Source: Diplonema papillatum (taxonomy: Eukaryota > Euglenozoa > Diplonemea > Diplonemida > Diplonemidae). Taken from it: a stretch of 64,000 bases of DNA. The stretch is from positions 62,001-126,000 of the forward strand of contig JAPJBO010000620.1 of NCBI GenBank assembly GCA_030068145.1. Direction: 5' to 3'. Positions 26,701-52,207 of the stretch are shown here, one piece after another. Every line of letters begins with the position of its first letter. Positions within the stretch are counted from its first letter, which is position 1. Below the pieces are notes generated by a model. That model did not search any database. It saw nothing but the letters and a program-made list of their open reading frames with translations, and was not told where the DNA came from. The translations under genes and the position numbers were made by a program.

Positions 26701-28567
26701 ACCGACGAGCAACCTGAAAATGATGGAAGGCACAGGCGCGGCGGTGGGTGTCGTGTCGGTGGCAACCTTCGCGTCCCCAACATCAGCGATGCGGCTCTCG
26801 CTCATCACCCAGACTTGCGCGCTGGGCGCCGACAACGCGCGGTCGGGGCGGGACTACTCGTACGCTATACACCCTACGCAGACCAGTATTGCTGGGCATG
26901 TTGACATCGCCGTCGTTCTTTTCAACCTACTCATCGCGACCGGTGTCCTCCTCTGCATGCTCGCCGTTGCCGCCATCGCCCGCCTCTCCGGCCTACTCCC
27001 CAGCCAGAACCTCGACGCGAGGGGATTCGTGTGCTTTCCTTCGATCCCCCTCTGCATCTGGCAAGTCCTGTACTTGGGCACCTGCTACGGCGCGGCGAAA
27101 CTGATCTACTACCCTCATTTTGAAAAGTCGGAGTACGTCGGTGCCACGTTTCTTGTGATATTCTTGGGGCTGCCAATGTTTGCCTTGCGAAAGGTCCGCG
27201 CTGGCGTGCCCTACCGTGCTCTTTACGTGAACGTTGGCTCATCAGATCTGTCCAGTCGGCTTTGGGCCGGTCAGGAGGAGCCGCCTGGCTACTCTCGCAA
27301 GCAGGGGCGCTTGTCGTTGCGAAGAGGGTTTGCCTTGGAGCCTGTGCAGGCAGGCGAGGCGCTGGCGTCTGGCTTAGTACAAAAGGACAGTTCAGAGTCT
27401 GGAAAAGGGGAGGCGCAAAGAGAGAAAGGTGCGCCGCCACTGGATGATTGTCGCGGATGCACAGCACGTGCTGTAGCATGGATTAATGGCCCCGGTGAGT
27501 GGGTGAGCCTACAGCGAGAATGTGACTGGGTGAGGCGGTACGGTTGTTTCCTGAAGCCATTCCGGCAGTCGGCTGCTTGGTTCGTAGCCGTCGACTACTT
27601 GACTAGCTTCCTCTTGGCGTGCGTTGTTGCGCTGGAGCCGGGGTCCGACATTGAGTGTGGCCACATTCGATTGATTAGCGCAGGTATATATGCAGTTCGC
27701 ACGGGGCTGGACGTGTACTTCGTCCCCTCGGCTAAACCGGTGAACGCGGTCCTCGAGCCCTTTTCGCACGCGTTGCAGGGCTGCGGTTTGCTGCTGGGCG
27801 CGTTATCTGCGTACACACACGGGATTGTAGGTCCTGGCTTCGGGGAAGGTGCATTGATCAGTGCAATGGTCGTTGTCGGTGTGCAAGCCTTCGTCGAGAT
27901 TCTCAGTGAAATAATCATAGCCTTGAATCATAGGCGGGACGATTTGCAGGAGCGTGTATTCAAATTATTCAACGGAGAAGAAGACGACAGTGATGCAGAG
28001 AGTGCGGATATTGTTGCCTTTGTCGGTAACCTGAGCCAGGTGCCCTCGCCATTCACGCGTTCAGTCAGCGGATGCTTGCCTTCCGACTCGCACATCATGA
28101 TCCACCACGACTTCTCTCAGGAAGACTTGTCCAATGAAACGACACCAAAAACCCCTTTACTCCCCTGCATCAGCACCAACGCTTCTCTGCAAAACCCGTT
28201 GTTGTCACCCACCCCCTGTAGCAAAAGCCTACGGGCCCGCTCCGTCACACGGTCCCCGTTGACCCCTCTGTCGTTGACTTCCTTCGAAGATGGAAGCAAC
28301 TCGTTCCTGTTGTCACCGCCTTGCGTCGCCCCCCGCCCCCCGCCGTATGCCTGCTTGTCCCCCACTGACGTCCCTGTCAGACCCAAACGCGCACGCGGGG
28401 ACACCATCCGCGTCCCGATCATCCGCTCTGCGTCTATCAGTCGGCAACCGTCTCAGCTTCGGACCCCCCGCACCCCTCTTCGCACAACAGCGTTCCGCGA
28501 CTGGCAGGTCGACTTAGACAGCACGTCGGGCTCCAACTGCGACGTTGCCAGACTCATCGTAACTTGA
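23780..28567 (+). CDS. LamG-like, mucin-stalk, multipass membrane surface protein 2
   Basis: One uninterrupted exon of 1595 residues from the ATG at 23780. The frame is open upstream, but only a GTG precedes it, and this ATG opens a good signal peptide (GVIAVCLVAPTWA). A LamG-like jelly roll (about 27-220; YSLSIWFKV, FAIDEFKIFDSVV) precedes a stalk of NAPATDAPPTNAP-like units to about residue 960. A conserved ALGADNA region and about seven membrane helices follow. The loop motifs GPGEWV and RRYGCF, and ECGHIRL before helix 5, match gene 1. The C-terminal 250 residues are a Ser/Pro-rich tail, predicted intrinsically disordered. It is a tandem paralogue of the gene at 13421, without that gene's intron. 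Function unknown; surface adhesion or sensing is plausible. Confidence 0.9.
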   Translation: MVNLLITSPVVKSGVIAVCLVAPTWAAVMDYFPFEGNVHDLGSEGSTTLEPFHDTQTYTTGQCGSNAAVVTSGQNYTVVTHIQNNLPVGFAPYSLSIWFKVLRAGPHNAGLVLAGTPTVFDNFTIVWPNSYHFNGAASDPMAIPLDTWTHLFVTSDHVHQQVYIDGSIILADLAVEAGTTGTRMIRLGALTLPVTLQDAGEFAIDEFKIFDSVVTYAEASMCGLPTLAPTISPATNAPATDAPPTNAPSSSPETSAPPTMAPTTNAPPTNAPATDAPLTNAPLTSSPKTSAPLTNAPMTNAPPTNAPATDAPPTNAPFTSSPETSAPPTVAPLTNAPPTNAPATDTPLTTAPLTSSPKTSAPLTNAPMTNAPPTNAPATDAPATDAPPTNAPFTSSPATSAPLTNAPMTNAPPTNAPATDAPPTNAPFTSSPETSAPPTVAPLTNAPPTNAPATDAPLTTAPLTSSPKTSAPLTNAPMTNAPPTNAPATDAPATDAPPTNAPFTSSPATSAPPTNAPATDAPPINAPFTSSPETSAPPTVVPLTNAPPTNAPATDASSTNSPATSAPSTIAPVTNSPATNAPSTDAPATDAPPTNAPFTSSPATSSPLTFAPMTNAPPTNAPATDAPPTNAPFTSSPETSAPPTIAPTTDAPPTIAPATNAPPTSSPATSAPPTTAPTTNAPRTLSPPSAPPTIAPTDFPATTKPPTNAPATNAPLTNVPATIAPSTSAPATNAPLTNVPATIAPFTTATIAPPTTVPATNTPLTGVPATVAPPTSLPATNTPLSNVPATIVPPTTAPATAARTTSPQTNVPPTSAPTTNAPIITSSTNVPPTDAPEANPTTSVPATADPPAATNAPYTYTDAPFTNAPATSASATNAPPTIAPSARAPATNAPTTSATIAPPTNAPKRAPTKLPSSNAPLTNAAFSSAAPTIGSAVTLPPLPTTKPSTEGNEQVAGTEGPSQGAEDGNQRPAAPTSNLKMMEGTGAAVGVVSVATFASPTSAMRLSLITQTCALGADNARSGRDYSYAIHPTQTSIAGHVDIAVVLFNLLIATGVLLCMLAVAAIARLSGLLPSQNLDARGFVCFPSIPLCIWQVLYLGTCYGAAKLIYYPHFEKSEYVGATFLVIFLGLPMFALRKVRAGVPYRALYVNVGSSDLSSRLWAGQEEPPGYSRKQGRLSLRRGFALEPVQAGEALASGLVQKDSSESGKGEAQREKGAPPLDDCRGCTARAVAWINGPGEWVSLQRECDWVRRYGCFLKPFRQSAAWFVAVDYLTSFLLACVVALEPGSDIECGHIRLISAGIYAVRTGLDVYFVPSAKPVNAVLEPFSHALQGCGLLLGALSAYTHGIVGPGFGEGALISAMVVVGVQAFVEILSEIIIALNHRRDDLQERVFKLFNGEEDDSDAESADIVAFVGNLSQVPSPFTRSVSGCLPSDSHIMIHHDFSQEDLSNETTPKTPLLPCISTNASLQNPLLSPTPCSKSLRARSVTRSPLTPLSLTSFEDGSNSFLLSPPCVAPRPPPYACLSPTDVPVRPKRARGDTIRVPIIRSASISRQPSQLRTPRTPLRTTAFRDWQVDLDSTSGSNCDVARLIVT
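24450..26590 (+). repeat. Coding tandem repeats of the mucin stalk, gene 2
   Basis: Units of roughly 15-18 bases encode Thr-Asn-Ala-Pro and variants. Higher-order blocks of about 0.3 kb (for example starting near 24690, 25010 and 25320) are nearly identical, showing recent homogenisation. The 3' third is more diverged. Confidence 0.9.
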
Positions 28568-31489
28568 ATGAACCCGAAGGGCGGTTCGTTCCATGACATT
28601 CTCGAGAAGGGGAAAGAAGAAGGTACAGCATATTTGGTGCTGCAAATAAGGGCGGGAGTGGTCGTCCGCCGAAGTTCATCAAAGTGGGATCCGGAATGGA
28701 TTGTCGGGAAGCCGTGAGGTTCTGTGTACTTGTTACCTTCCTGACCCTCTCTCGCACCGACCCGACCCTCTCTCGCACCGATTCCGCGTCTCTACGTGCA
28801 CCACACCAACTACCGAGGACGCTCGGTGCCCCTGCGGACTTCCTTGCACGATGGAGCCAGCCTCGGAAGCTGGTGTTAATGTTGGTGTGCCCGAGTCTCA
28901 CCGACCGAAAACGTGCGTAAATGTACGAAAAGCGAGCGGGTTGGACACCGGCTTTTTTTAGCTTCTGCTTCTGCGGCTCGACCGCACCGTGTACACACAG
29001 TGCTGCACTCTACTGGACGAAAGCTATCACTTGACCCCCAACCCGTGAGCGAGATTTGAATATCCCACAATTTCCTCTCATGTTTGCCCCTGTCCCTCCT
29101 ACCTCGAACAATGTCTTCCTCCGTAGCTGATGATCGCGGCGACGGCAGTCCTCTCCCTGAAACGATTTCCCAGTGCTCCCGAAGCATGGGAGCTACTGCC
29201 TAGGCCGACCAGTGCAGGACCGAAACACGATGCGACAAAAGGTTACGTACGCCAAAGCACGTTTTTGACAAACAATATCGCTAGACAACGACACGACATC
29301 CGGTCTCAGTACGGCTGCGAGGGCGTGCGAAGTGTGCCCTTTTTCCGAATTCAAGTAAAAGGAATGCTGTGTTCGCCAAAGTTCATCACGAGAGAGGAAG
29401 ATTGTCTCTTATCCCCTCTCTAAAGCTCAGTTTAACATACATACGAACGATGCCGTGTCTGAATATCCGCGACGTATCCTTTGTTCAGTGGGAGTTGAGA
29501 TCTCCGTCAAGATGCTAGCCGCCGCCATAGGGCGTGCTATTGCCAAAAGGAGGAGAGCCCGCGAAACAACGTGTCAACACACGCCTGCCAGGCGGTCTCG
29601 TCCGTCAGTCAGAACGCCCCCGGCTGCGCCACCATCGGTGCAACAATCATCTTTGACCGGGCCGCGGCTCGCTCCGCGCCCACGACGTAACGACTTACGC
29701 CCGCCGTTGTAATACGGGACAGTAGTGGGGCGACCGGATACTCCCCGGAGAGATGGTCCCTGCACTCTACTCGTCTCTCTCTCTCTCTCTACATATCGTT
29801 GCCGCCTTGTTCCTCCTCCCGCTCAAGTAATAATTAATGACGCCTTCAACTTCAATGCAATCAACTAACGTGCCTGCCTTTTCTGCAATACGTGTTTTCG
29901 TTTCGTGTTTCTTGGAGGAAACAGAAACGAAATCCACCTCCGCCTCAACTGTCTAACGGACTTGAAAACACGGCTGAAACACGGAACAGATTAGAAAAAA
30001 GAAAGAAATGGGGCAGCGATGCCCCGGCGGCGCGCTCTCGCTAGTTGTCTGTCGCAACACGCAACCTCACAACGCAAAAAGCAGCACCTTCCATTCCGCT
30101 GGACGAGTGGCGCGCAACCCTTCTTCGTGAGCTGCGTCGAGTAGCTGTCCTGGGGCGTGGAGAGGGTTGCATTCAAGACAAGGTGAGGCGCGCATCTCCA
30201 CCCCGAGTTTGAGAACGTGTTCACTACGTGCTACCCGAAGGGAGTGGCAGGTAAGAACTGGTCAAGCATACTTACAAACACAATTGCACACTTACACACG
30301 AGGTATCCGATCATTTTCGCTGACTGGGTTCCCTCTCTGAACTCCCCGGCTGTTCCCTCTTTACAAGCATCAAACCACAAACAACATGATTCATTTCTGA
30401 TTTCAAACCTTCAACCCAAAAGATAAGTCGTCGCCTCAGTTATTTGTGCGACCTTCAAATGCTCAGGTGGTTCCTTGCGTGAAGGTGGGCGCCAGAAAAG
30501 CGCACCATCAACGAGCTGCACCCACTGGCAACTCGGAAAGAAAGGTGCGAGAGCTGACTTCGGAAAAACGCAGGAAATCGCCCAGTTTGATTTACTATCA
30601 CGCTGTCTAAGGGTGTTCACTGCGCTCATCTTTTTGGTTCTCCGCCGTTATCAAGAGATATCGAGGCAAACGGAGTGTCCTGCAAGTTCTTACGTGTTCG
30701 GTGGTACTGTCACGAGCCTGGAGATCAAGTCGCCTTCCCGAACATGAGCAGCAAGGCGTGGAGTACTTGGGGCTTGGCGCTTGCGCAGCTGCCTAGCGAC
30801 ATCAGCCGAAGGTTGTTCGAGCTTCTTTTCCTTCTCCTGGCAACCAATATCGCCATATTCTAAGAAAACAGGTGTTTTCTGCCATTCTGGCCTCCTATGT
30901 GCGAACACAACAATGCTATTCTTACGTGGATGGATTACTGAAGAGTGTTCGGTCCCATCGGGTGCAGTGCACGCATGTTCCTTGCCTGGTCCAAAGAGGC
31001 AGATTTTAAGTCGGAACGTCTGCACAAGGCACAATACGCTTCCCTCTAACATCCCTGGACGCTGTCGCCCAGCCATTGCCGGAACCTTTCAAGCTCCTTT
31101 ACCATCTCCACAGTAATGCTTTTGACCGCAAATAACTAAGAAATTGCGAGGATTTGTGTTCCTCGACCTCGACTGCTGTCCCTGGTGGCCTTTCCTCTTT
31201 GACCCGTCCGCCGCCGGACCAGCAAAGGGAGCAAAGAGGGTGCCGTTGCGTTGCAGCTCAGTGAATGCTCTGTTCTTGATGGAAAGCAGCTCTTGAGTTT
31301 GATCCAGTGGGTGAACTGATTATCTATCCAGACCCCCTACTTGTTTCTGAAGCTCTTGAGTCCTTCCCAACAACTTTGGCAGCCAATTTGGAAAAGAGTA
31401 CTTGTGGGCCACAAGGTATTCTACCAGAATTTCTTCGTCAGACACAACGAAAGAGAATGCCATCATTTGCCTCGGTTTGAGTTATTAAC
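28568..31489. other. Intergenic, about 2.9 kb
   Basis: No supported gene. It contains a 19-base direct repeat (CCCTCTCTCGCACCGA, twice near 28745-28783) and the dispersed CT-tract repeat at 29702-29790. Confidence 0.5.
29702..29790 (+). repeat. Short dispersed repeat preceding a CT tract, copy 2
   Basis: Starts CGCCGTTGTAATACGGGAC, continues to CTCCCCGGAGAGATGGTCCC and ends in a run of CT dinucleotides. It aligns over its full length with 63774-63870. Confidence 0.75.
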
Positions 31490-34400
31490 ATGAGCGCTCT
31501 GAACGAGAAAGAAACCAAGCTCAGAAGAAAAGGGGTGTGGGAGGGGTGCTTGCAAACGAAGACAGAGCTACACAGGAAGATGGAGCTGGATGCGGCCATG
31601 AGTGACTCGTCCGCGGAGGAGGAGTCGAGGATTGGAGGGCAGCCCGCCCACGCGTACGTCAGCGGCCTGTTCAGCGACGTGATCGGCGCGCTTCACGCCG
31701 CTAACCAGATGCCGCAAGGTGACGACTACGAGTTTTACAGGTCGTTCCGCGGATTTCCGAAGGAAATGACGAACTACACGGCGGCCCTAACAGGCATGCT
31801 CGACGAGGTCGCTGCAGCGTGCACGAAAGGCCTCGCGACAGACGGCACACCCACCGAAGCCGTATCCGAACTCGTCGAGAGCCTCTTCGAGAACATCGAC
31901 GACGACTTGGACATCGTCCGGGCAGAGGCGGGCGGCAGGAAGCGTTCGGCGGAAGAGCAGATCCGCAGGAAGCAGCTGCTGCGTGCCGCTTCGCAGACGA
32001 CGAGGCCGCAGAACAGCTTCCGGCGGCAGCTAGACAACAGCACGGCGCCGTTCCGGCCGTTCACCCACGTCGACGCCGACAACATCCGCTGCGCGCCGCC
32101 CGGCACGTGGCCCTACGAAAACGAAATAAAGACGCACCGCGTCGCGGACTGGCAGCTGCTGTTGCCGAACCCTGCGACGCCGTCGTTCGTGCCTGCCGAC
32201 CCCGCCACGTTGACGTACATCGACAAGCCGGCGCAGCTGGAGAAGCTGCGGTCGGTGTTGCTCGCCGAAAAGGAATTTGCCGTCGACTTGGAGCACCACA
32301 ACCTGCACTCCTTTCAGGGCTTCACGTGCCTCATGCAAGTCTCGACGAGGACGGCGGACTTTGTTGTCGACTGCCTCGCGCTGCGGCACCATATGTACGT
32401 GCTCCTTCCCGCGTTCATCAACCCGAACATTATGAAGGTCTTCCACGGAGCAGGGTCCGATATCGAGTGGCTCCAGCGCGACTTCGGCATCTACATCGTC
32501 AACCTCTTCGACACTGGCATTGCTGCGCGTCAGCTGAACATCCCAGCCGGACTGGTCTGCTCCCCTCCCTCTTCCCACAGTGTCTTCGTGGCCACACAGT
32601 TTCTGGCAGGTTTTGGTGGTGCTTCAGCGGCCACTGCGGCGTCTATCCTCGACGGGTCTCGGAACCAGTCCTGCAGTAAGTTTGCGCCACTCAGCGCAGC
32701 ATACCAACATACAGGCCACTGAGTTCTTTTCTCATTTCCATTAGACTTATTTAGTACACGAAAAGCCCAACGAAATCAGCGAAGAAGTGCCATTCGATAC
32801 AGGACATGCCCTCCAAAGAGAGGTTCGTTACAAAAGAAACATGTACACGCGAAGAACCAGATTGTTTAACCTAAAAAAGAGGCAGACGTGCTCCGGGTGA
32901 GACCGTTCGTCTGTTCGAGTTAGTCCTTTTGTGCCGTTCAGAGATAAGGTATATTAAACGATGAGGAGACTGCGACGGGTATGGTTCGTCGGTCCTCCTT
33001 GTGACGTTCATAGTCCAAAAAAAGAACGAAATTATTACACATCACTCAACACAGGGTAAACTGCTCGCTAGCTTCGGGATCAACGTGGACAAGAAGTACC
33101 AGACGGCGGACTGGCGACAAAGGCCCCTGTCAGTTGAGATGCTGAAGTACGCACGAGAGGACACGCACTACTTGCTCCCGCTGGCGGACCATTTGCGCAC
33201 CAAGCTGCTGCAGCAGGAGGGTAAAGGTGCGGTGGTGAACCCTCTGCAGCATGTTTACGACGAGTCGCGGGCGTTGTGTTTGAGACGATACGTCAAGCCT
33301 TCGTTGGAGGACGACGAATTCCGTATGATGGGCCGCATCGACGAAGGCGTGCGCAAGCGACATAGCGCTGCCCTCCACACCATCCTCCGTTGGAGAGACT
33401 TCGTGGCCCGCCAAGAAGACGAAAGCTACCCGGCCATTCTCCCGCACGCCACGTGTATCTCTCTCGCCCAGGAACTTGCTTCCATCGACATCTCGCGCGG
33501 GGTGTGTGCCTTTATCTGTGTAGAAATGACTGTCCCTCGGCCAGCCGTGCTCGTGCTGTGGGAAAGATCGCAGCACTGGTCCAGTACGAAACGGCGCATG
33601 GTACCGACTCCATAATGTACCGGATAAGATATGGCATAGAATATTGTCACTGAAGGGCGCCCGTCAGTATTAAACCCCTGGAGTTTCAATCAGAAAGAAT
33701 AAACCGCGCCTCCCACTCCGATAGGTGCGGGCGTTCAGCTGAATGGGAAGTCAGATGGTGTTTGCCTTCTTCACAACGTTGCTTCAGCTTGCTTGCGCAA
33801 GCATGGTTCTATCTTAGGTCCTGGGTGTTCCCATAGGGTCACTGCCTTGCCAACCCAATCAACAACACAGAGCATTTGTAGACTTTTTACGCCAGTCCCG
33901 CGATTTCTGCAGAAGCACATCGGGCACTTAGTGACAATGCTGCAGCAGGATAAGGTTGGGCCGGTATGCACCCATGTTTTCCCTGGTACGTGGGGCACAG
34001 GCTGCGAGGGTTTTTGCTGCTGCCTCGCCTCTTCTACAATACTGCAGTCATGAAGCGAATCGGCATGTCGTAGGGTAAGTGCGCCGACCGTTAGGGTTTT
34101 GGCTGAGCTAGTAAACGGTAGCTTGGGTCAGACTGCAAAGAATCTGTGGCGATACTCTGCACTTTACTTTTTTAGCGTCGGAAACGCATCGCCATCCTGT
34201 CAAGCTTTGCGCGCGAGATTCCCGAAGCGCGTGCTGAGTCGTCTCCCGGCGCAGTCGTTACTACGATTGCCAGAGCATCTTGGCAAAGCCCCAAAACCGC
34301 AAAACACACAGGTTACTACGGCCCCGGCACCCGTGCAACCGGTCAAGGAGTCGAGGACAACAGCGGAGTTAATCGAAGAGGTTGAGTGGGTATGCCACCA

Positions 34401-36297
34401 TGCCCCCCTTTCACTTTATTTCACTTTAAGAGTTTGCCTGAGCTACTGCTGTCGAAGAATGCAAGAGTTTGTTCCCTGTCTGGATGCCGCCCGTCCTATT
34501 CAATCTAACCTTAAGCTCGCCGGCACACACGACACGTAGGATAACACGAACGGGTTTGCGCCGTATCAGACACAGGACACTAGCTTTTTTTTTCCAAAAC
34601 CCGTCACGAAATCGGTGAATGGGAAAGGAAAGTAAACAGAAGCGCAAACAACAGCCCTCAGTGAAAAGGTCGTGTGGGGTCCAGTGGAGGCGTGGGTCAG
34701 GCCGCTGTGTCAGGAAGTGGCTGGCGGTGAGGGCTGGGCCGGGTGGTCGCCGCTGGGCATGGTGAGCTGGCAGAGGTTTGGGACTGCCGCGGGGGCTGGC
34801 CGAGAGTGAGAGTCGAGAGCATCAGAAATAGCCCCTGATTTCTTGGCATTATATCCGAGTTACAAGTGTCTTGTTCTGTGTGATCTCCGTTAGCATCTAA
34901 TGCTTTCCCAGGCAGTTGACATCCGAGTGGGATGAAGTTGAAAAGGGTTGTTGCCATTCAGGAATGCGCACCTGGGGCCAGGTCCAGGTGGCAAGCAGTG
35001 CCACCAGTATGTTGGTAGATACATTCAACGCGACAAACAGACCGAGAAGTGCAAACTTGGTCTCCGCCTGAATGTATCAAACAGTACGGAATGAAGAATG
35101 CGGGGTGCACCGTCAGGCTTCTCGGTCTCAGAACCGGGGGAAGAATTGGAGACGGACTTGGGAAAGTGAAGCAAAATTAAACTAGTACCCTGCTAGCAGC
35201 AGTGCAACATAACAAACGAAAACAGGATGTGGAGAATGACGACAACGACTTGTGGGCAGTGGACAATGCACTCGTGCAGGTCGTCCGCAACGAGCCTTCT
35301 GCGCTGTACCAGGCTTTGACTTCGTACGTTGACAGGAACAGCAAAGACACCATCGTCAAGCACTTCGCGAGACAACGCGCCGAGGTACGTTACCTTCACC
35401 ACGGCGAATTCCGTTGCATTTCAGCTTCTCGTGTGCGTCGATTTTTGTTATGCCCAGCGCAGCGATACATCAGGTTGTCAGGGCAAGTCAGGTTGTCAGG
35501 TCCCCTAGTCAAGACGATCTCTGCAACTTACCACATCGAACTACAGCTTCAACCACCTTCTTTTCGTTGTAAGTTGCTACCAGATTCTCAAGCACGAGTG
35601 CCCATCCAGAGCAAAACGATACAGGCAGAGTAGCCCGGCGAATGGCAATGTCAGGAATCTTTAATGTGAAAGGTTAAAGGCGACTTTCCCAGCACACGTT
35701 TTCTTGGTAGTGTCCGTTGGTAGGGTCTTCCAAGAACCAGTTCACTCCAGCAACCCGGACACACAGGTGACCGCCAAGAGAGAGGCGAAGCGGAAGCTCA
35801 ACGAAGAAGCTGTGGCGACACTCGCAACGCAGGCAGCCCCGCAGCCCCAAGTGGCCCCTGTAATGAGCAATGTGGAAGGGTTGGGACAGACTTTGGCTAC
35901 TGGCGGAGGCGACTTTGTCAATTTGCAAAGCGGGAAAGCCAGCAAGGTGAAAGCCACCCCGGCACAAACGTCGTCGCATCCAGTCGCCGGGAGCAAGGAC
36001 GCTGTGGCATCAGGCGTTGTGGCGGCAGGTGACAACGAGGGCGACATGCTCAGCCTCAGCGCGAGGAAGCAGAAGGAGAAGAAGCAGAAGCGCGCCGCCG
36101 ACAAGAGCGAGAAGGCCGCTAAGGAGGCAGCCGCTACTGGAAGCGCTGGATCGTCCGCCGGCTCGACAGGCGAGCCTGCCGTCAAGGCCAGCAGAAAGGC
36201 CCGCAAGAGTGAGAAGCGGCCGCCGCTGCCGCACGAAGAGCACGCATCCATGCCCGACGCCGCCGGTAACCAGTTCCTCCAAAACATTGGCTGGGAG
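31490..36297 (+). CDS. RRP6: Exosome 3'-5' exoribonuclease RRP6/EXOSC10
   Basis: Nuclear exosome-associated DEDD-family RNase that trims rRNA, snoRNA and aberrant RNA. Supported exons are 31490-32554, 33055-33501, 35226-35384 and 35767-36297; a further exon near 34176-34350 is likely (RRKRIAILSSF reading completes the HRDC domain). Residues about 50-110 form the PMC2NT N-terminal domain (QGDDYEFYRSFRGFP). The catalytic core shows FAVDLEHHN (about 265), HGAGSDIEWLQRDFG (about 322) and YAREDTHYLL (about 385), giving D-E-D-D plus the Tyr of the DEDDy subgroup. HRDC begins at LRWRDFVARQEDESYP. The later exons give a Lys/Glu- and Ala-rich tail ending in NQFLQNIGWE before a GT donor, so at least one more exon must exist. 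The first donor is GTCTGC, a weak consensus, but the junction restores the family alignment. Confidence 0.85.
34176..34350 (+). CDS. RRP6: Probable additional RRP6 exon (HRDC end)
   Basis: A T-rich tract and TTTAG acceptor are followed by an open phase-0 reading (ILSSFAREIPEARAES). It fits the end of the HRDC domain, where the preceding exon stops. The 3' donor is not resolved. The alternative frame is also open, so the call is tentative. Confidence 0.45.
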
Positions 36298-38070
36298 GTG
36301 TGTGACCTGTATTATATTAGAAACCTACCTACAGAGAAGGGTGAGGCCTCTTGAGTTCTTGAACGCTTTCGTAGGTCTTTTAGGTGAAAGGCAGCCATGA
36401 GATATCGTCTCCGGTATTTTTGTTCGTTTCCAGCGACAACGTGCTTCGGCTAACAGATTCTTTATGGAAACACCAGTCAGGTCGAAAGTTAGGCTGGGGT
36501 GGCACATCTGTTATATGGTACGATGCCAAAAGGGGGGGGGGGCAGTGCTGATACTAAGCCTGAGACCCAAAACGAAGTTGCTAACCCTGGGTGGGGGTGG
36601 GTACCCCCCCCCCCCCCCTACCCCCCCTCCCCCCCCCCCCCCTCCTGGTGCAACCCACTGTGGACCTACTGTGGGACCCACCTTAGCTAAATTCTCTAAG
36701 GTGAAATGGTGGAAAAAGTGGGTCAAATCTTTTTTTTTTCGAGTGCTTTTTTGGGAGGATTTGGGCCAAAAATTTTTTTTTTTCTTGGTCGGTGCTGAGG
36801 AAACCACCTTAGAGCGGGCACCACCCTGCTGCACACAGGCCCTGCAAGGGGGGGGGGGGGGGGGTAGGGGGGGTCAAAAGCTGTCAAAATAGGTCATTTT
36901 TTTTGGAACCACATAGGGGCTCCTGAAAGGCAATAAAATTTGGTAAACCGCCCCAGAACCGTATAGAAATGCCTAAAACATGCTTTTTGGCTGCTGAAGT
37001 GCCCCGAAAAGGCCTTTTTACGAGTGCCCAATTTTTGGACTCAGGGTGGACACCGTTTGGTACCGGTGTTCTTCTTTTTAGGTGACAACCCCAAAAATAG
37101 TGACAGCATGAACCGAAGAAGGAAAACAACACTGCCCAAACCTATGTATTTTTACTCAAAAGACTTTCCTGAGAGTTGGGGATGGTGGGGCTTCGTAGGA
37201 GGCATCGACAAGCGACTCAATGAGGTACGGCTTCGTAACGTGCCGCCCCCTCGAGTCCTTGACGTCAGCGCCAGCTTTCGTAGTGGCCTGTGTCGTGTAG
37301 CGTGCTACCGCAAGCTGCAGATACCCTGCCCTGAGCTGCTATGTCGTGGCAGCCCTATGAATCCACCGCCGAACCTTTTCGTTCAAGTCCAGTTTTCTAT
37401 TTTTGTTCAAGCTCAACGTGCGTTGGGGTTAGGTACCAGATACACCCCGGTGACCAGTATTGTCTTCCGTGCGTGTGCAATGCGACCCTTTCGGGGTGGT
37501 GTACGAAAGGCGAACTTGAATAAAAGACACTGTCGCGTGCATCCCTTCAACAAAAACGTTGGGATCTGGAAAATCCCACTACGGATGAGAGCATCTCATT
37601 GTTTTTCTCGGAAAGACATCGAACTTTGTGAATATCGCCCCAGCAGCAGTTCGGGGAAGAGCTGCTGCCTGCGGTGTCAACAACACCTCAGCTTGCGCAA
37701 GACTCAGAGAGCCTTTTGGGACGTTGTTAACCATCCAGACGAGCAACGTTCATAGCTGCCTTCCTCCTGGGTGTCGTTTGCCCTTTTGTTGCTTCCATTT
37801 GTGGCTGCCTGCACGTGATTGTAGCCTCATCTTTGCATGGTATGAACAGTGAAGCACACACACAGGCAGCTAGCCGGTACCAAACGGTGTCCACCCTAAA
37901 ACCATCAACTAATACACCCCCCCCTGGGCCATTTTCCATGAAACTTTCCCCAAAAACACGTTTCCGGGCATTTCTGAGGCGGGTTGCATGTTTTTTTAGC
38001 CTTAAACTGCCGTTAAGTCTACAGGCTGAAAATGTCACCATTTTGACGCAAAAAAAGACCTTTTGACCCC

Positions 38071-39622
38071 CCCTAGGGCTATGTAGGATGGAAACGTTGG
38101 AAACGTTTCCGTTTCCGTTTCCGTTTCCTTCTTCTTTGGCGGTGGATGGAAACGCCGTTTCTTTTCAAAAGAAACGGCTGGTATGCCACTAGTATACTGG
38201 CTGAAGGTCCGACCGGAAATGTGTTCCGAACGGCGGACCCCGCAATCCAGTGGACAAGGAGGCTCCGAAAAGAGGGAGGAAGACAGAAAGAAGAAATGAA
38301 AAAGGCCGTTCCTGGTCCAGGAACGTGACGGTCAACCACAGCTTGCAAAGCTTGAGTCGAGGCAGCACAGTGCCACAACCCCGTCCGCTTTGCCCTGTGG
38401 CTGACCGCCTCGACGAGCTTGTGTTCAGCGCGAGCGCCAAGCCCCAAGGTGCGCCAAGCCTTGATGCTTTAGTTTGGGAAATCGGTGGCCGCTTGGCCCG
38501 TGGCTCTGCAGTACCGCCGAACACGTGAAGCTTGGCTCCCGTGTAGCAGGTTTTCCCTGGTACCTAAAGAGGGAGGAAAGAAGCATAAGAGTTGCGACCG
38601 CGTGGAGCAGACGCAACCACACGCATCCGGTTGTGCTGACTTTTGAGGTCTGCAGCTCTTTACACCAATGGCTGTTGTGGCGACGATGCTCTGTTATGCG
38701 AGGCTGTTGGCCAACGCGCTGAAGACGATCGGGAAAGCACATCCGCTCCAATAAACTACTATAATAGACTCTACAGATACGATCGTTCAGCGCCACAGGC
38801 TACAAGACGGGTCTTTCGGCGGTGTAAGACAAAGAGTGAGTGCAATCAGCATCAGGAGGTGAGAAGGGCACACGTATGCCGGGGCAATGTTGAACCCGCC
38901 AGAAAAGCGATGGCCACGCAGTAACGTGTGCGTTAAACATCGCTTGCCACAGTGCACCTTGCATACGACGACGGGTGGCAACCGTCACCGGAAGGGGCGG
39001 TGTTGTCGGAGCATAGACAACGACGGCAGGAAGAACCCACCAACAGTGCAGAAGAGGACGGCAGATTCAAAAAGCCCCACTCACATGAGAACGTGGGTTG
39101 GAAGCATCAGAAGACGAAGTGGTAGGCACAGAAGAGTGGAATCTGGTGTCAGAAAACATCCACATGTGACGACATTCTGCATCATTAGCTTGTGGTTACC
39201 TATTTGCTCGTGTCGGATCGCCGACGAAAGAAAGCGGTGAGCACCGGCGACTGCTCTGCACAAACGAGACCGCGACGACACACAAGAAGGGGCCGAGCCA
39301 AGTCGAAGAACAGCCCAGGAAGGGCCCTGAAGAGTCAGAGAGCCCGCCAGAAGACGGAGGAAGAGAAGTGCCCGCTGGTAGATCAAAAGAAGAAGGTGAT
39401 CCCGCCCTCTGAAAGGAAAGCCAAAAATTGGCTGGAAACGGACACCCGACGGACACACAGAAGGACCCGCGAAGTGGTATCTTATAGGACCCCTCAGCAT
39501 GAAGAGCCTTCCGGCGTTTCTTTTAAAAGAAACGGAAACGTTTCCGTTTCCGTTTCCGTTTCCGTTTCCTTATTTCGAAAAAACTAAAAGAAACGGCGTT
39601 TCCATCCAACTTAGCCCTAGGG
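38071..39622. repeat. Inner inverted repeat with GTTTCC hexamer arrays
   Basis: The left arm begins CCCTAGGGCTATGTAGGATGG and contains four-plus GTTTCC hexamers (38096-38127). The right arm (39500-39622) is its inverted copy with a similar array at 39537-39569. The roughly 1.3 kb between the arms has only unrecognised ORFs. Confidence 0.75.
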
Positions 39623-40302
39623 GGGGGGGGGGGGGGGGGGGGGGGGTTTGGGGGGGGGGGGGTACCCACCCACCCCTCGTTGCCGTCCGGCTGACAACGA
39701 TGCCGAGTTTAGGGGCCTTAGCATCAGCACTGGGGGGGGGGGGTTTGGGCAGATGTTTTATGGCATAGTAAGATACTGGGCATGTGGGGTATGGGACCCA
39801 TATCCCCCCAGAAACCTTTTTTTCGGGCCGGTTTTGGGGCCAAATGCCCTCGGAGAGCCTTCTTTCTGAGCGCAAAACTCTGTTTCTGTGGGTTTCGAGG
39901 CCCCGCACGGTGCACTCCAGCATCGCGTGGGGGTGTTAACTGTGCGGCCAAAGTGTTGGGCGTGGGCACACCTGCTAGATCCAGTGTGCCACACCCGCAA
40001 ATCCAGCGTGAAATCCACTGACACCCAAAAATCCAGTGCGGAATCCAGTGTGACACCCGCAAATCCAGTGTGAAACCCACTGTACACCAGCTAAAACAGT
40101 TCCCCAAGTTGGATCGAGTCACCTGTCGTCCAACGCAAATCAATCATCAAGGAGGCGAGGCCCCTGGTTGTTAAAAAAGCTGACCCCAGGTTCTTCTGGC
40201 AGTATTGGCAACTTTTATTGGCAGAAATCGGCTTGTCGGATCGAAAGAAGTGAGTTTGCTGCTGGTAACCTCACGAAGGCGATGGTTAATCGTGTTCCCT
40301 TC

Positions 40303-40518
40303 TGCAGGTGTCGCACACGTCCGGCCAGGTGTTCGAACCGGGCACCACGTAGCTGGCGGTACGTGGTGTACGACACCTTTGCCGTTAGTTGGCCTTCTTC
40401 GTCCACCAGCCTGTGCTAGAAGGATTTGTGCGACGAACGTCTTGTGCACGACAGCTTTTCCGTGACCCACGACGTCGGTGGTTGCCTCCACGAGATCGTC
40501 GAATGCCTGCTGCCTCAT
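40303..40518 (-). CDS. Candidate coding fragment inside the element nest
   Basis: On the minus strand an ATG at 40518 opens MRQQAFDDLVEATTDVV. A second open stretch in another frame contains VDEEGQLTAKVSYTTYRQL. A small CTAG/CACAG acceptor between them would allow a spliced join. The composition looks protein-like, but no family is recognised. It may be an element gene remnant or a captured host exon. Confidence 0.25.
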
Positions 40519-41254
40519 GGGTCACCTTTGTCGGTCGCCCTCTGTACAGAGACCCCGGGGTCAACTCCTGCAGCTTTCATCAGAAAGGCTCTCGTCGCTC
40601 TAAAGTGTCTCCGCATGGAGCCCTGTGACCTATCGTACTTCGTGTGCGTCTTGCCTTGCAAATTTTTGAGCCAATTCTTCGAACGAAACGCATTTACGAG
40701 TCACGCATTCTGAGAACAGAGTTAAGTTCCTGTTCTGGGTGGGTGCTGCCGCCGTAGCCATTGTACAGTCGTAACCCCACCTGGGGCCTCAAAGTCCACA
40801 ACAACTGAGTTTTGCGCTCAGAAAAAGGTTCTCCGAGGGCATTGGACCCCAAAATCGGCCCGAAAACATGGTTTCTGGGGGGGTATGGGTCCTATACCCC
40901 ACATGCCCAGTATCTGACTATACCAGAAAACATCTGCCCAACCCCCCCCCCCCCCCTTTTGGCATCGTCTCATATACATTAACGCAGTGTCCAAAGGCAA
41001 ACTCGGCGGGAACAGAAACCTCGTGAAGAGTACGGAGCTGCCCATAAACGGCCGCCTGCCACTGTCCAGAGTGCTCTGCAAAAGGAAGATGGTCAGGTCC
41101 GCCAGCGGTGTGCAATGCCAAGTGACCGCTGCCCTTCTACGCGCCTGTGTGTGCGTAGTGCTGTTGTGCGTTTGTTTTGCGGACTCCTTCTCTTTCGTGC
41201 CCATTTTTTACCACACCAACCAAAAGAAGAAACCAACACCCGCCCCCCGCGCAG

Positions 41255-42016: not shown

Positions 42017-43386
42017 GCGACACGCATGCAGTTGTGCCAGTCCGCTTCAGTTGTTCATTGCAGAAGTAGATGTGGCTGCCGCTATTTCAGTCGGTAAGCG
42101 TGGTTTCCGCATGTTTGCTTCGTGAAAATGACGAATCATCGACGTTCGCCTCACGAACCACAGCGTTTTCAGATAAGCGAATTCGAGCGGTGATCGCGCG
42201 AATAGTCTTTATCGACCGGCGCAGTGCAGAGGTCTGCTCCTGCGAGCCTGTTGCCCTTGCGCACCAGCGTTTCGCTTGTGCCCTCACGCAACGCATGGCC
42301 GGTGACGAATATCCACCAACAAAGAGAAGTCCGGCTCCTCAATACAAAACAGTCTATTGTCCGCGTCCCGCCGTCCTTCACTTGCCTTCCCGCCAGCCTT
42401 AACACATGGAGTGCGCCGTGCTCTTTCCTGCAGGGAAAGCCGCATATTCTTCAAGTGGCAAGTTCTATTGGCACGGATCCTAGGATGCCAACTCTTTGTC
42501 ATCTGACATCAGACATCAAAAGCAGAAAAAGAAGCGGTGAAGGAATACCCCCAATTCGAACTCGACGAGTCTCTCTCTTGGGCATCTGGTTCAACCTGCT
42601 GCAGTTGAGCTGGATCTCGCAAGCAACACCGGGGGCGAAGCTGGCTCGCACCTTTTAATCTAACCTCCTGCATTCCCCTTTTTCTTTTTCCGTTGGAGAC
42701 AAATGTGGGGGGAAACGAGAACGCGTGTGAGAAGGCCACTTTCAGCGCGTGCTCTACTGTTCTTGTTTCCTTCTTTGTTTCCTTCTTGAAGTATCATCAG
42801 CAAAAAGACAAGTTCAACCCCTCAGAGGAGCGCCAGCTGCAACATGAGGAATTCCCGAAGCTGGCAATCCCCGGCCACTGGGAGAAGCGGGTCGAAGATT
42901 TGTTCTCAAAGAACACACGCTCCTCTTTGGCCGGGTCTTCGATCTGGCGATCTGAGGTTGCTACCACAAGTCCGGAGGTTCGTATTAAGGCCTTCGGATT
43001 CCTGCCACCATTTTGTCGAGACACCCGGCGGGAAGTATTCACCGCTACTCAGCGCTCGCCAAACGAAGCTATGAATAGATCATGTGGTTTGTCCCAGAAA
43101 ATGGAAATATTTGGTAGATTGTCAAAAAAAAGACAGCAGACAACACCTGCGACCGCTGGCAGATCGTCGGTTCGGGTCGCCTGACCTGCGCACTGCAAAA
43201 GCAGATCAGCTACGCTTTCCTGTCGTCTTTTTTCCCTCATTTTTTTGTCACCTTTCCGCGTTCAAAATGAAGTTCTGAGCAGAACAAGGGACAGAAGAAA
43301 GGAGTAAAATATCTGTCGCTTCGTTCGTTCTCTGATTGCTGCTTTTTTTTTCAAATGGCGCGTGCGGCTGCCGTTTGCAGTCTTGA
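42017..43386. other. Intergenic, about 1.4 kb
   Basis: No supported gene, RNA or repeat was recognised. ORFs up to 163 codons (42693-43184) lack domains. Confidence 0.5.
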
Positions 43387-43821
43387 TATGAGATGATGCC
43401 AAACCCCCCCCCCCAGTGCTGATGCTAAGGCCCCTAAACTCGGCATCGTTGTCAGCCGGACGGCAACGAGGGGTGGGTGGGTACCCCCCCCCCCTAAACA
43501 CCCCCCCCCCCCCTCCTGCAGGGCCTGTGTGCAGCAGGGTGGTGACCGCTCTAAGGTGGTTTCCTCAGCAGCGACCAAGAAAAAAAAAATTTTTTTTTGG
43601 CCCAAATCCTCCCAAAAAAGCACTCGAAAAAAAAATTTTTTGACCCACTTTTTCCACCATTTCACCTTAGAGAATTTAGCTAAGGTGGGTCCCACAGTAG
43701 GTCCACAGTGGGTTGCACCAGGAGGGGGGGGGGGGGGGGGGGTCACCCCACCCAGGGTTAGCAACTTCGTTTTGGGTCTCAGGCTTAGTATCAGCACTGC
43801 CCCCCCCCCCCCCCCCCCCCC

Positions 43822-44263
43822 TTGCACTAATAAATCTTTTTTGACGTCACCCTATACTGGCCCCGAACCCCCATCTGTGTGGCCCAAAACGGGTCCCAAA
43901 CGGTTTTTGACGGGCTGAGTCGAGGTAAAGGGGTCTCCGAAGGCCCACGAATGGGCCCAGGTGGGCCCAGGTGGGCCCCGGAGCGGGCACTCAGTGCGAG
44001 GGGGGGTGCCCCCAAAATGGGGTCATTTTCAAAGCCTCGCCACTTCTCAAGCTAGTCAAACTCCTTCTGGCCTCCAGCGGGAAACCCAGACTACACAACG
44101 ACAAGATCGGCTGTGTTCCGCTGTAGATAGCCACCAGCGGGTCCTCTTGAAGCCGAAGAGTGTTCTCAGGGGTCACAGATAGCCCTGCAGCGCCAGCGTG
44201 GGCAGGCACACCTTGTAAATAGAGTGGGTGCAGCAGGTGCACCCTGCCTAGAATCCGGCTTTA
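43822..44263 (+). repeat. Left arm of large inverted repeat
   Basis: About 440 bases, the inverted partner of 44803-45249. Shared landmarks include TGCACTAATAAA, GGGTCCCAAACGGTTTTTGA, GGGCCCAGGTGGGCCC and AGATAGCCACCAGCGGGT, with a few substitutions and small indels. Confidence 0.9.
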
Positions 44264-44802
44264 CCAGCAATACTAATTAAGAAAACAGATTGACCCAGGG
44301 AAACGGAAACTAAGAGAGGGGAAAATGCCAAAGATCACGGGTCTGGAGTTCGTGGAGTCATCGGTGAGAGCAATGCAGAAGTTGTCGCCGTTTCATGAGG
44401 AAACGAGACGTGGTCAGTCCATGCAGAGACGACTCGTAGCCAGCAGGACCTTTTGCGAAAAGGTCTCTGGTGAGGACCTGATCGGTTTATTTCTTCTTCG
44501 CCCTAATGACAGAGAGGGAGAAGGTTGACATCTGGAAGCGCCTTTTTGGTAGGCTTTCAGAAGCCTTCAACAGCCTTGACGACGAGGCGAGCCGGTGACG
44601 CATCGTGAGTGGTTTGGACTGGGCACGTGCCCGGTACAGGGCTGTTGGAATGGTCGTGGGTGACAATCTCAGGAAGAACCGGGGAAAGGCTGCCGAGATT
44701 GGCGTTGGCGGGAGGCCCACAGTCGTCATCTTGGCTCTTTTGCATTTTTCCACCCTATATATTCTGCGTTTTCCTGGTAAGCACTGTGTTCTCAAAAGCG
44801 GG

Positions 44803-45249
44803 TGAAGCCAGATTCTAGGCAGGGTGCACTTGCATACCACACATTCTGAGCGTGTGCCTGCCCACTGCTGGCGCTGCACACATGGGGCTAACTGTGACCC
44901 CCGAGAGCATTCTTCGGCTTCAAGAGAACCCGCTGGTGGCTATCTACAGCGGAACACAGCCGATCTTGTCGTTTTGAAGTCTGGGTTTTCCGCTGGAGGC
45001 CAGAAAAGTGTTTGACTAGCTTGAGTAGTGGCGAGGCCCGAAAATGACCCCATTTTGGGGGCTCTCACCCTCGCACTGAGAGCCCGCTCCGGGGCCCACC
45101 TGGGCCCACCTGGGCCCATTCGTGGGCCTTCGGAGACCCCTTTACCTCGACTCAGCCCGTCAAAAACCGTTTGGGACCCGTTTTGGGCCACACAGATGGG
45201 GGTTCGGGGCCAGTATGGGGTGACATCAATTTTTTTTTATTAGTGCAAA
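44803..45249 (-). repeat. Right arm of large inverted repeat
   Basis: Inverted copy of 43822-44263. The arms are close enough in sequence to fold into a long hairpin or to act as terminal inverted repeats of an internal 1.4-kb element nested in the larger one. Confidence 0.9.
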
Positions 45250-45689
45250 GGGGGGGGGGGTTTGGCATCGTACCATATACTGGCTTGAGAGCTTGAGAGC
45301 TTGAGCGGTGGACACCGCGATGAAGTGCTTTCAATCGAGGCGCTTTCCACCTTGTTGCCTTGTTAGGATTTGGAAAGCTCAGTATCGCGTCCGGATTGGC
45401 AAATACCGCTGCATTCAACCCGTGCCAGTTCTCTCGGTAGAGCCGTCGAGATCTCCGGCCGCATGAAGTTCAGCAGTTCAAACGAGTTGTTGCAGGGGCG
45501 GAGGGTGTGGGGGTGCGCACCGGAGGTTTAGGGAGCAGAAGGAAAGGGAAGTGGGCACGCACACGATGAAGCGGCGGCGTGAAGAAGCTACGGGCTGCGA
45601 GAAGCGGAAGCGAGTTTCTTTCGGGGTATGACCAGCTTTGTCTCGTTCTGCCTCGGCAACTCCCCGAAGCCTCATTTTGATTTGAGCTA

Positions 45690-48914: not shown

Positions 48915-50350
48915 AGGAACCGCCCTGTGAAGAAACGGGGAGTGCTTCTGTATCATGTCGTCAGAAATGTGTCACCAATGGAGGGGCGATGCTTGCGAGT
49001 GGGCAGCTCCTTTATTCTTTGCTAAGCTTGCAGTGCCGCAAAAAGACATTGGTCCAGGCTACGTGCTGAACATTTATTTAGGACACTGACCCACATGCCT
49101 ACGAATGGCACTCGTGCCCGCCTGTAGCGCAAGATGCGAGCCGGAGTCGTAAGGAGTCAACAGGCCTGAGCCGCCGAGCGCAGCTTTATTGCGAACCATT
49201 TTGTCACCACTGGGGGAGCTGAATATTCTTCGACATGCTTTTTTGCCTTGTGCGTCATGAGGTGCAGCAGGCGAAGGAGTCTGTTTGGCTCCTTACGGCG
49301 CTGTGTGGTGTAAGTCAGTCGTCGCCAACTGTTTCGTTCTCGGGAGCGGCAGCGGGCTGCGTCCGATGACACAAGCGCTTCTCAACACTATGAAAGGCAA
49401 CAAAGCGGTCCAGGCCCATCTCGCGCCTCTCTCTCGCATACCGTTTCTAGCTTTCGTTCCCCTCTCTGTGCCCGGCGCGTTTTCGTCTAGCCCATTTTTA
49501 CTCAGCGGTGTGGCTGACGAAGACAGGAGCGTTGCTTGCTTCCTGCAGCCTACCGATCACCGGCTTCTGTGTCGTTACCTAACGCGGTTTAGAGACTATT
49601 CTTGAACTTACCCTTTACAACGTGTTCAACGGGGCGAATGGACTGCTCTTGATTCGCGCAGACAAAGATATCACATCGTAAAGAGCCTCAAAGAGTCATC
49701 GAAACAACGATGGCCTGTTCTTCGGGCGCGAAGAATTCTCACTTCCGATGTATTGCTCTTTCTCACCATTGCCATCCTTGGCACCTCAAGCACATCTCGA
49801 GCGCTAGCCTCTTGAAGGTAGTGGCTCGTTGTTTTCCTTTGGTTATCCCGTCAAACCTTCGTGCGCAGAAGAGGATCATCAGACGTTCGCACAAAAGGGT
49901 GGTGTCAGCACGGCGGCCGTGTCACGAGAGAAGGACGGACACTCCTCCCCATCGTGAAAATGGCACCACGCCCGAAGTAACCGTGCAGCTCGTCTGGCAG
50001 GGCTTTGTTAAGGTGTGGCTTCCCTGCTTCTCGAGGATGTTTCTTTATACACGACACGATGGACGGGCTTGCGAACACCTCTGATGAAGCTCGAAGGAGC
50101 ACCACACGTTTCGGAAGAAGAGGTGCGCATTCATGCTGCAGTTTATGTGCGGCAAGCAATGCCATCACAACTACACTATGACTTGTCACTAACCGATGAA
50201 CAACTCCGCTGTATGCAGAAGCATTAGGGTCGACCATGAAAGTAGGTTCCTAGCTCCTCGACCTTGCGCCTGCCATTTCGATGCAGCAACCTGCAAACTA
50301 CTCACTGTGGGCAGAAACAGGACTACAAATAGAAAGTTCAACTCCCTCAG
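48915..50350. other. Intergenic or 5' non-coding, about 1.4 kb
   Basis: No supported gene. Missing 5' exons of the retropepsin-like gene may lie here; none could be recognised. Confidence 0.4.
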
Positions 50351-50398
50351 CATCACTACATCACTACATCACTACATCACTACATCACTACATCACCA
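50351..50398 (+). repeat. ACTACATC microsatellite next to a splice acceptor
   Basis: Five to six copies of an 8-base unit, ending five bases before AACAG at 50404. The array is open in several frames and sits in the position of a polypyrimidine tract. Confidence 0.9.
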
Positions 50399-50404
50399 CA
50401 ACAG

Positions 50405-52207
50405 GCGTTGCCCGGCTTGAGGCTGATCGCTGAAGGGAAGCAGAGCAAATGGATCGTCGACACAGCGGCGAGCCACTCGTGCATAACGCCGGCAGGGGAA
50501 AAGAAGCTGGCCTGCAGCGAACTGCTGCGAACAAAGGCCAACGCGCCGCGGCTGGTGTACTCGGCCAGGGGCATTGCGGCGATAACCGGAAGCCGGTCGG
50601 TTGAGCTTCCGCGCAACTGCACCGTCGAGTGCGCGCACCCGCCCACCCCGTCGCGGCAGCATTCACTGCTGATGCCGCGGATGGTGCGGGCGGCCGGGGC
50701 ACACGTGCTGAAGTTGCCCTGCGGCACGAGCGGCGTGCTGGGGGCTGACTTTCTGGGCGGTTTCGGTGCCGTTGCGTTCCGGTGGTCGCTGCGCCACCTT
50801 TCGTTCCTGCACGGCAGCCCTGCGTCGCCCATCGCCGAGGCGGAGCGTTTTGCGAACGAAAGCAGCGAAGTCGCCTCCGGACCCCTCGCTCGCGTTTCGA
50901 TCGCGAATCGGTTCAAGGGTTTGGTGACCATCACAGTCGTCCTCAACGGCCCTTCAGGCTGCGTCGAAGCAGCGGCGATTGTAGACACTGGGTGCCCTTT
51001 CACTGTTGTCCTGCCGTGGCTTGCGCAGAAGCTAGGCGTTGTTGTCGGTGCCTCGTCTGTCTCCGGTTCCTGGTTTACGTCCGCAGCCCGAGACTCCGCA
51101 TTCAGAACACAACAACGCGGGGCGAGCGCAACTGACCGGAAGCCTCCGCTACCCGAGGAGCCCGCTACAACGAAGCTGCAACCGCCGCCGCTCTCACCCG
51201 TGCAGCCGACGGCACGTCCTGTGCCCGGTGCGCCGGCGAGAGCGGGCACGCCAGTTTGCATCGAGCCGCCACTCGGGGTCAGCCTATCACCTTCCGATGT
51301 TCGTGTCGCGCGCGGGAAGAAATATGGCTGCGCAGACCTTATTTTAGCTGCTGACCAGGTGCAAGAGAACAGAACGCACGATGGCAAGCATCGAACGGTC
51401 GAAGGGCTGGACGACGAAGATCATGCCGGCGGGGCACCGGATATACCCGAGGTGCTGTCTTTCTCTGATGCACCTGGTGCACTTTGTACCGACACATCGA
51501 TGGAGGCGTTGTCAGGCCAAGGCGTTGACGCACCCGCGTGCAGGGAGGCTGTCACCAGTCGCCTGGCCGAGCTCTCGTCCTTGCACCGCTCGGGCACGCG
51601 GCCTTCATCAGAATGCCGCCTTGCTTTTGATGCCGTCTCGTGCACAGTGCCAGCCGGGCGGGTATCAAAAAGGCATCTCCGTCTTGGGCCCGCGAGCCAT
51701 CCGGCCGTTGTTCGGTGCGAGTGTCCTGCGACGGAAGCTGGAACGGATGAGCCCCGTGACGGTGAGCTTCATGCGTGCGGTACTGACAGTTCGATTCGAC
51801 TGGTGTCGCATAGGTCACATCCAAAACGCCAGGGCTCGACTGGCCTTGTAAGCGAGGCGCAGCTGGGCTGTGCCCCGATAGCAAACGACGGGTCCAGAGA
51901 GCCCGACTGCATTGAGGACAGTGTTGCTGTGAACGAGAGCGTCGTGAGTCCTGCGTTGCAAGCAACCGACGAGGGTGATGCGGGCAACACGGATGTGGAC
52001 GTAGTCATTATGTCGGAAACGGAGCTCGCTGAGAGTGGGTCAAAAACACTACTGCTCGAATCCGTCGCATGCTGCGCGCTGCAGCTGGCAGTGCTTTCTC
52101 ACCACGAGCGACGGCTCGGCATGCCGGTCATCCTCCTCGGGCTCAACGCGTTGACAAAACGGCACAGCCTGTGCATTGCACCACACCTGCGAAAAGTGTG
52201 GCTGTAG
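50405..52207 (+). CDS. Two-domain retropepsin-like aspartyl protease
   Basis: The exon begins after a CAACAG acceptor and ends at TAG 52207 (600 residues). No in-frame ATG lies near its start, so an upstream exon is missing. The first retropepsin-like fold has KWIVDTAASHSCI (about 15-27) and the closing GVLGADFLGGFGAVAFRW (about 113-130). A second begins GLVTITVVLNG with AAAIVDTGCPFTVVLPWLA (about 190-208). Its closing psi-loop half, PVILLGLNALTKRHSLC, appears only about 340 residues later, after a long acidic, low-complexity insertion. Retropepsins work as dimers, so two domains in one chain could pair internally. The first active site is DTA rather than DTG/DSG, which may weaken catalysis. 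It reads as a cellular protease; no reverse transcriptase, integrase or LTR is nearby. Confidence 0.72.
   Translation, partial: ALPGLRLIAEGKQSKWIVDTAASHSCITPAGEKKLACSELLRTKANAPRLVYSARGIAAITGSRSVELPRNCTVECAHPPTPSRQHSLLMPRMVRAAGAHVLKLPCGTSGVLGADFLGGFGAVAFRWSLRHLSFLHGSPASPIAEAERFANESSEVASGPLARVSIANRFKGLVTITVVLNGPSGCVEAAAIVDTGCPFTVVLPWLAQKLGVVVGASSVSGSWFTSAARDSAFRTQQRGASATDRKPPLPEEPATTKLQPPPLSPVQPTARPVPGAPARAGTPVCIEPPLGVSLSPSDVRVARGKKYGCADLILAADQVQENRTHDGKHRTVEGLDDEDHAGGAPDIPEVLSFSDAPGALCTDTSMEALSGQGVDAPACREAVTSRLAELSSLHRSGTRPSSECRLAFDAVSCTVPAGRVSKRHLRLGPASHPAVVRCECPATEAGTDEPRDGELHACGTDSSIRLVSHRSHPKRQGSTGLVSEAQLGCAPIANDGSREPDCIEDSVAVNESVVSPALQATDEGDAGNTDVDVVIMSETELAESGSKTLLLESVACCALQLAVLSHHERRLGMPVILLGLNALTKRHSLCIAPHLRKVWL

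Follow-up and report, generated by a model that had tools for sequence, protein, structure and literature searches.

Positions 62,001 to 126,000 of contig JAPJBO010000620.1 of Diplonema papillatum (assembly GCA_030068145.1), 64,000 nt that we call the window, carry two elements whose ends contain runs of G or C. All 14 of the G/C runs of at least nine bases in the window lie within them. Element 1 occupies 36512-40976, as an earlier sequence-only reading had it, with TATATG ends and G/C runs. The same reading gave a second element with the same termini. Its right end at 45279 agrees, but it starts at 43385 and not at 43387, and its left terminus is GATATGAGATGATGCCAAA, with two changed bases. 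The terminal tracts had been described as G. Read inward, this is true of element 1, whereas element 2 has C, and the base is set by the family. Rfam and tRNA scans of the window gave 0 and 0 matches. Comparisons were made with the 271 Mb of the genome, and run lengths are those of the assembly.

We propose, with a probability of about 80%, that these structures are two nested guilds of cut-and-paste transposons. Class I elements carry the runs in their ends. Class II units are hAT-like and would land in runs of G or C.

Element 1 is layered. The G run at the GT end holds a unit of the CAGTG family, and TAGGG-ended units (36865-39619) lie in the right-hand G run of the CAGTG unit. Without this nest the outer element measures 1,268 bp, and an unoccupied copy (L026) is identical to it at 1252 of 1262 aligned bases (99.2%). 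The same outer element recurs in L040 with a CAGTG unit in the same run, where 1193 of the 1199 shared bases are identical to element 1. The inverted pairs likened before to a Russian doll are present, but not as the design of a single element. The inner units are separate insertions that are also found without the outer element, and the unoccupied copy rules out one element with a nested design. Element 2, after removal of its 386-bp nested unit, is 87.5% identical to L017 and 74-76% to six others. The 386-bp unit itself is 96-99.5% identical to six of the seven copies compared and 55% to the remaining one (L051). Judged from its sequence, element 2 is a C-type derivative carrying the start of a TnpC-type gene.

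The class I terminus is a motif of 19 letters, one more than first counted. That it might have no other copies in the genome had been named as a point against the element; there are 526 exact copies (266 forward and 260 reverse, with 0 and 0 for the reversed motif as a control). Looser patterns, which require nine G or nine C starting no more than four bases beyond the end, matched 460 and 345 times in the forward direction, against 4 and 5 in the forward controls; their reverse counts, 1680 and 1292, are inflated by sliding matches. We estimate that the genome holds about 900 G-type and 700 C-type ends. Forty stretches were fetched, which cover the first 48 of 100 places listed among the 526 matches. 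They gave 29 paired elements, the two of the window included. Two bases of the terminus had been called variable. They do vary, but not at random: the ends are GT and AG in 25 of the 29 pairs and AT and AG in the other 4. In one of the 25 GT/AG pairs (L045), the two ends belong to different elements, one nested in the other.

A run of G or C, according to the family, lies about 20 bp inside each class I end and is about 9-17 bases long. After CCAAA(A), the base is G before TTTGGGCGG (family A) or TTTGGGCAGATG (family B), and C before TTTGCACTAATAAA (family C). The core motif was present in 74 ends, a count from which the pattern missed the occupied left end of element 2. Among these, 57 were unoccupied and classifiable (25 A/B, 30 C, 2 other), 11 were occupied by class II units and 6 were unclassified. 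The spacing from CCAAA to the next box, extra A bases counted, has a median of 15 in A/B ends (interquartile range 14-16) and of 13 in C ends (11-15). Pure runs were found in 23 of 25 A/B ends and 21 of 30 C ends, and most impure C ends resemble C8-T-C4. The variable run lengths fit slippage.

The run could instead be functional in class I itself, as a quadruplex or another non-B structure on which the outer transposase depends and which class II merely exploits. Across three families with transposases 50-65% identical, nearly every class I end has a run, and if it is the double strand that counts, G in A/B would be equivalent to C in C. Against this, interrupted runs of similar total length occur in 9 of 30 C-type and 2 of 25 A/B ends, and a length rule fits equally well. 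Hairpin folding at three ends was in no case better than shuffles to any degree. We consider this alternative unlikely.

The target of class I was compared with related sites. The joined flanks of L042 align with L024 (91%, 184 columns), which has a single TATA where L042 has TATA on both sides of the element. Comparison of L041 with L025 gives agreement in length. Sites related to that of L022 (76-78%) allow a duplication but contain gaps. On the AG side, the flank was ATAT in end orientation in 33 of 33 cases, and the three bases adjoining the element are always TAT, the fourth varying. The duplication is thus 2-3 bp long, TA or TAT, which are not distinguishable. The TATA-like duplication first expected is present, as a small one. 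Class I without any target duplication is ruled out by the unoccupied relative in L024, and a 4-bp TATA duplication by the varying base after TAT. L045 was also rejected as a clean site of class I within class I, with sequence missing at the junction. As a separate observation, in L031 (534-6577) a class I element lies at the centre of a palindromic CACTTGT/ACAAGTG repeat, and this repeat recurs in L022 (1174-1252).

A co-mobile transposase had also been anticipated, and class I copies do encode transposases of about 600 aa. Their long open reading frames (ORFs) span 774 aa (L023, L036), 641 aa (L034) and 621 aa (L045). After trimming, the L034 protein shares 50% identity with that of L023, and the L045 protein 65%. 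The A and C transposase genes sit between A and C ends, respectively; the B assignment is weaker, the L045 gene adjoining a B end in a damaged nested copy. A genome search, in which 73 of 790 candidates were scored, gave 58 full-length genes without stops (29 TnpA, 25 TnpB and 4 TnpC type). Identity to L045 is 99-100% over the full length in the 25 TnpB genes, 65% over 594 residues in the 29 TnpA genes and 51% in the 4 TnpC genes. Since intact transposase copies are near-identical, the sequences point to recent activity of class I.

The Pfam models gave nothing above cut-off for the three class I transposases and, up to an E value of 10, no match to Tc1/mariner or PIF/Harbinger transposase families. 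Below threshold, DUF6736 (E 0.044, L023) and YL1 (E 0.028, L034) each matched one protein only. DUF7869 matched over the catalytic D369-D405 region in two of the three (E 0.21 in L023 and 0.09 in L045), below its curated cut-off. In the open-access literature searched we found no paper on DUF7869 proteins. The AlphaFold2 model built from three sequences is of poor quality (pLDDT 38.8), but in its succession of strands and helices D289, D369 and D403/D405 fall at the positions of a DDD core. Foldseek with this model gave no match at E 0.001 or better. Its first weak matches were Mos1 (0.003), Argonautes, RNase HI, an integrase and IstA, with Sleeping Beauty lower. From the model, the core is probably RNase-H-like of the DDD type. 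A sequence search of the PDB with the class I transposase gave nothing relevant. Of the pattern matches obtained, 124 in viral contigs and 59 in prokaryote genomes, none was confirmed as a relative.

Units with ends CAGTGCTGAT, CAGCGCTCTTG/CAGGCATCTTG and CAAGGGTACC were found in the runs of class I, flanked left and right by the same base. The class II sample comprises 30 pairs, 20 from the CAGTG family with its 793 ends and 10 from the CAAGGG family with its 39. The majority flank base was the same on both sides in all 30 pairs. In 25 of them, both flanking 8-mers consist of one base at 7 or more of 8 positions; in the rest of the window 80 of 57,262 8-mers do (0.14%). Twenty pairs sit in pure runs and are uninformative on the length of the duplication. 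Among the ten in imperfect runs, four show an exact 8-bp duplication and no other length (L049, L053, L062, L079/080).

The orientation of the CAGTG family is fixed. Its ends directly follow G8 in 230 cases and C8 in 286, together 516 of 793. Among the matches listed, 100 of 100 ends that follow G8 are A ends and 100 of 100 that follow C8 are G ends. The 20 fetched pairs all have the expected orientation, so that the family lies in one orientation along the G strand. Three of these pairs are in class I runs, 4 are in or beside other class II units, and 13 are without an element recognised by the motif list. The target of class II is G runs in general, and class I ends are one source of them. 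In L037, CAAGGG ends adjoin GGGGCC with no long run.

Two further alternatives bear on these insertions. The assembler might have made the runs and inversions, as homopolymers are error-prone and some runs exceed 25 bases. With hundreds of copies on many contigs, 8-bp duplications outside homopolymers, a fixed orientation and an unoccupied counterpart, we regard such an artefact as extremely improbable. Alternatively, there is one transposon family with modular ends, and the G/C runs are joints where end and core modules swap. Different subterminal sequences do share the same 19-bp end and run, some elements have ends of two types (e.g. L018), and TAGGG units form composites. Nevertheless, nested units have the same base on both sides and an 8-bp duplication in imperfect runs, they are also located without class I, and element 1 minus its nest is an intact class I copy. 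For the CAGTG and CAAGGG units this explanation is largely refuted, and as a whole we judge it improbable.

The ends of class II resemble those of hAT transposons, whose terminal bases are YARNG: CAGTG, CAGCG, CAAGG and TAGGG fit, and CAGGC does not. L011 contains DGASAMSG and CCAHVLNLL, which we take to be hAT-like. Coding copies with CAAGGG ends are 3.5-3.7 kb long and encode 811 aa (L011) and 945 aa (L027). According to PMC3942097, hAT elements have an 8-bp duplication and a size of 2.5-5 kb; class II shares this duplication, and its coding copies are within this range. Pfam gave no mudrA-like match in L011, L027 or L046, and the PDB sequence search with L011 and L027 returned nothing relevant.

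Several observations weigh against the two-guild reading. The class I duplication has a single exact unoccupied relative behind it (L024) and a single case of agreement in length (L041), and L020 and L048 are off by one or two bases at this check. For class II, 6 of the 10 pairs in imperfect runs lack an exact 8-bp duplication: L064 has 7 bp, L056, L059 and L060 have 8 bp with one mismatch, L052 has two mismatches, and L050 has matches of 3 to 7 and 7 of 8 bases. The CAAGGG family has no fixed orientation (5:5 among 10 pairs). The TAGGG family, with 557 ends genome-wide and many pairs about 1.2 kb apart among the matches listed, does not fit cleanly. Of ten fetched pairs, one has runs on both sides and two have none; six have a run on one side and a companion unit on the other, and one has a run and a changed companion. 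Finally, no hAT profile matched significantly. In L011 the DUF4371 match is sub-threshold (E 0.04) and behind Rtf2 (E 0.015), Pfam gave no hAT match in L027, and no coding copy with CAGTG ends was found. Because of the missing profile match and coding CAGTG copy, we use only the label hAT-like, which the duplication and ends suggest and a transposase match does not.

Some units have features of their own. The L027 protein (1885-4719, + strand, 945 aa) is related to that of L046 (1512-5501, - strand, more than 1300 aa), with 24% identity (E 1e-44), and both belong to run-associated units; a SAP-like stretch in L046 is just under the cut-off (E 6.5e-5). The TAGGGCTA unit (38074-39619 in the window; L091-L108) carries repeats of the hexamer GTTTCC, and CCCTAGGG often links its end to an end of the TAGGGGGGGTCAAAAG unit. 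In L014 (2410-4068, + strand), a CAGCG/CAGGC-ended unit in a class I run contains a gene resembling ubiquitin hydrolases (Pfam UCH, E 7e-24), which may have been captured from the host.

Table. Layers and parts of the two elements, in window coordinates
Feature	Position	Strand	Basis
Element 1, outer class I element, B-type ends, GT end left, AG end right	36512..40976	+	ends; match to L026
GT terminus TATATGGTACGATGCCAAAA	36512..36531	+	
G11, left part of the class I end run, split by the nested unit	36532..36542	+	
Nested CAGTG-family (hAT-like) unit, A end left, orientation as expected for a G run	36543..39732	+	
Internal C-rich run of the CAGTG unit, C15-TA-C7-T-C14	36604..36642	+	
TAGGG-ended 1.2-kb unit, third layer, entered from a G17 run	36865..38075	+	genome-wide ends; flanks
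Companion unit TAGGGCTATG...TTAGCCCTA, joined to the TAGGG unit, then G27-TTT-G13	38074..39619	+	same junction in L107/L108
G11, right part of the class I end run	39733..39743	+	
Decayed pieces of class I-type transposase in the body of element 1	40243..40646	-	tblastn, 35-55% identity to TnpA, TnpB or TnpC
C15 (G15 inward from the right end)	40942..40956	+	
AG terminus TATATGAGACGATGCCAAAA	40957..40976	-	
Element 2, class I, C type, AG end left, GT end right	43385..45279	+	
C10, left part of the class I end run	43404..43413	+	
Miniature CAGTG unit of 386 bp, nested, G end left, the expected side in a C run	43414..43799	+	
C22, right part of the class I end run	43800..43821	+	
Remnant, first part of a TnpC-type transposase gene, two frames	44328..44739	+	tblastn, 57% over 118 aa, 89% over 83 aa
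G11 (C11 read inward) and GT terminus of element 2	45250..45279	-	

An RRP6-like gene with 3'-5' exonuclease and PMC2NT domains (31481-36354) seems to stop some 160 bp short of element 1, which may therefore be in or near the 3' untranslated region of the gene. Elsewhere in the window, two long ORFs (13358-16231 and 23672-28567) have T/A/P-rich repeats, the first with a Laminin_G_3 match. An ORF at 50333-52207 has an Asp_protease_2 match (E 3.8e-7) and is possibly from a retroelement.

The two guilds could interact as follows. A class I element with 19-bp ends (GT or AT, plus AG) and a run inside each end would insert at TAT/TA with a 2-3 bp duplication. Its run may be a spacer whose length is limited, placed between two contact boxes and maintained as a homopolymer by slippage. 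Class II units, presumably moved by hAT transposases, would integrate into G/C runs with an 8-bp duplication; inside a homopolymer this duplication would be invisible, and the run would simply continue on either side of the unit. Class II units would land in class I ends because these provide G/C runs, and repeated landing in the internal runs of class II would build the Russian doll. Recognition of the run at integration might depend on the shape of G-run DNA or on a G-binding domain. That the CAGTG family keeps to one orientation on the G strand suggests a difference in how its two ends engage the two strands.

Insertion into (TA)n has precedents. According to PMC4486113, MuTAnT (a MULE), Micron and TAFT insert into simple repeats, which are proposed as safe havens. 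Class II also inserts into simple repeats, but theirs are (TA)n and the elements belong to other families, whereas class II uses G/C runs with an 8-bp duplication. By analogy with MuTAnT, as that source presents it, runs in transposon ends might serve as harmless landing sites. A review (PMC12477314) reports that transposable elements prefer microsatellites of unusual conformation such as A-DNA.

Class I resembles Tc1/mariner and PIF/Harbinger in its 2-3 bp duplication and in the weak Foldseek matches of the poor model to Mos1 and Sleeping Beauty. It differs from the former in having no Pfam match to Tc1/mariner transposases. PIF/Harbinger elements have the 3-bp target TWA, whereas that of class I is TAT, with no Pfam match to the PIF/Harbinger DDE domain. 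DUF7869 remains as a sub-threshold likeness in two of the three transposases. The usual target of hAT elements is nTnnnnAn. Class II departs from it in its G/C homopolymer target, its fixed orientation in one family and its lack of a significant hAT profile match. Among the papers listed from the open-access literature searched, we saw no hAT element that targets G/C homopolymers, no fixed orientation in such targets and no poly-G ends like those of class I.

The complete proposal is that a hAT-like lineage recognises G-homopolymer, that one of its families reads the polarity, and that it feeds on runs in the ends of other transposons, including an undescribed DDD-type superfamily with a regular G/C run. 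We hold this chain tentatively, at somewhat below even odds. If true, the reading of homopolymers with a fixed polarity would offer a natural system in which to study the influence of DNA shape on integration. One set of transposons would then clearly be landing in the ends of another, and G-run structures that might be put down to assembly errors would have an explanation. The transposase of the outer family lies outside all Pfam models and has many intact copies.

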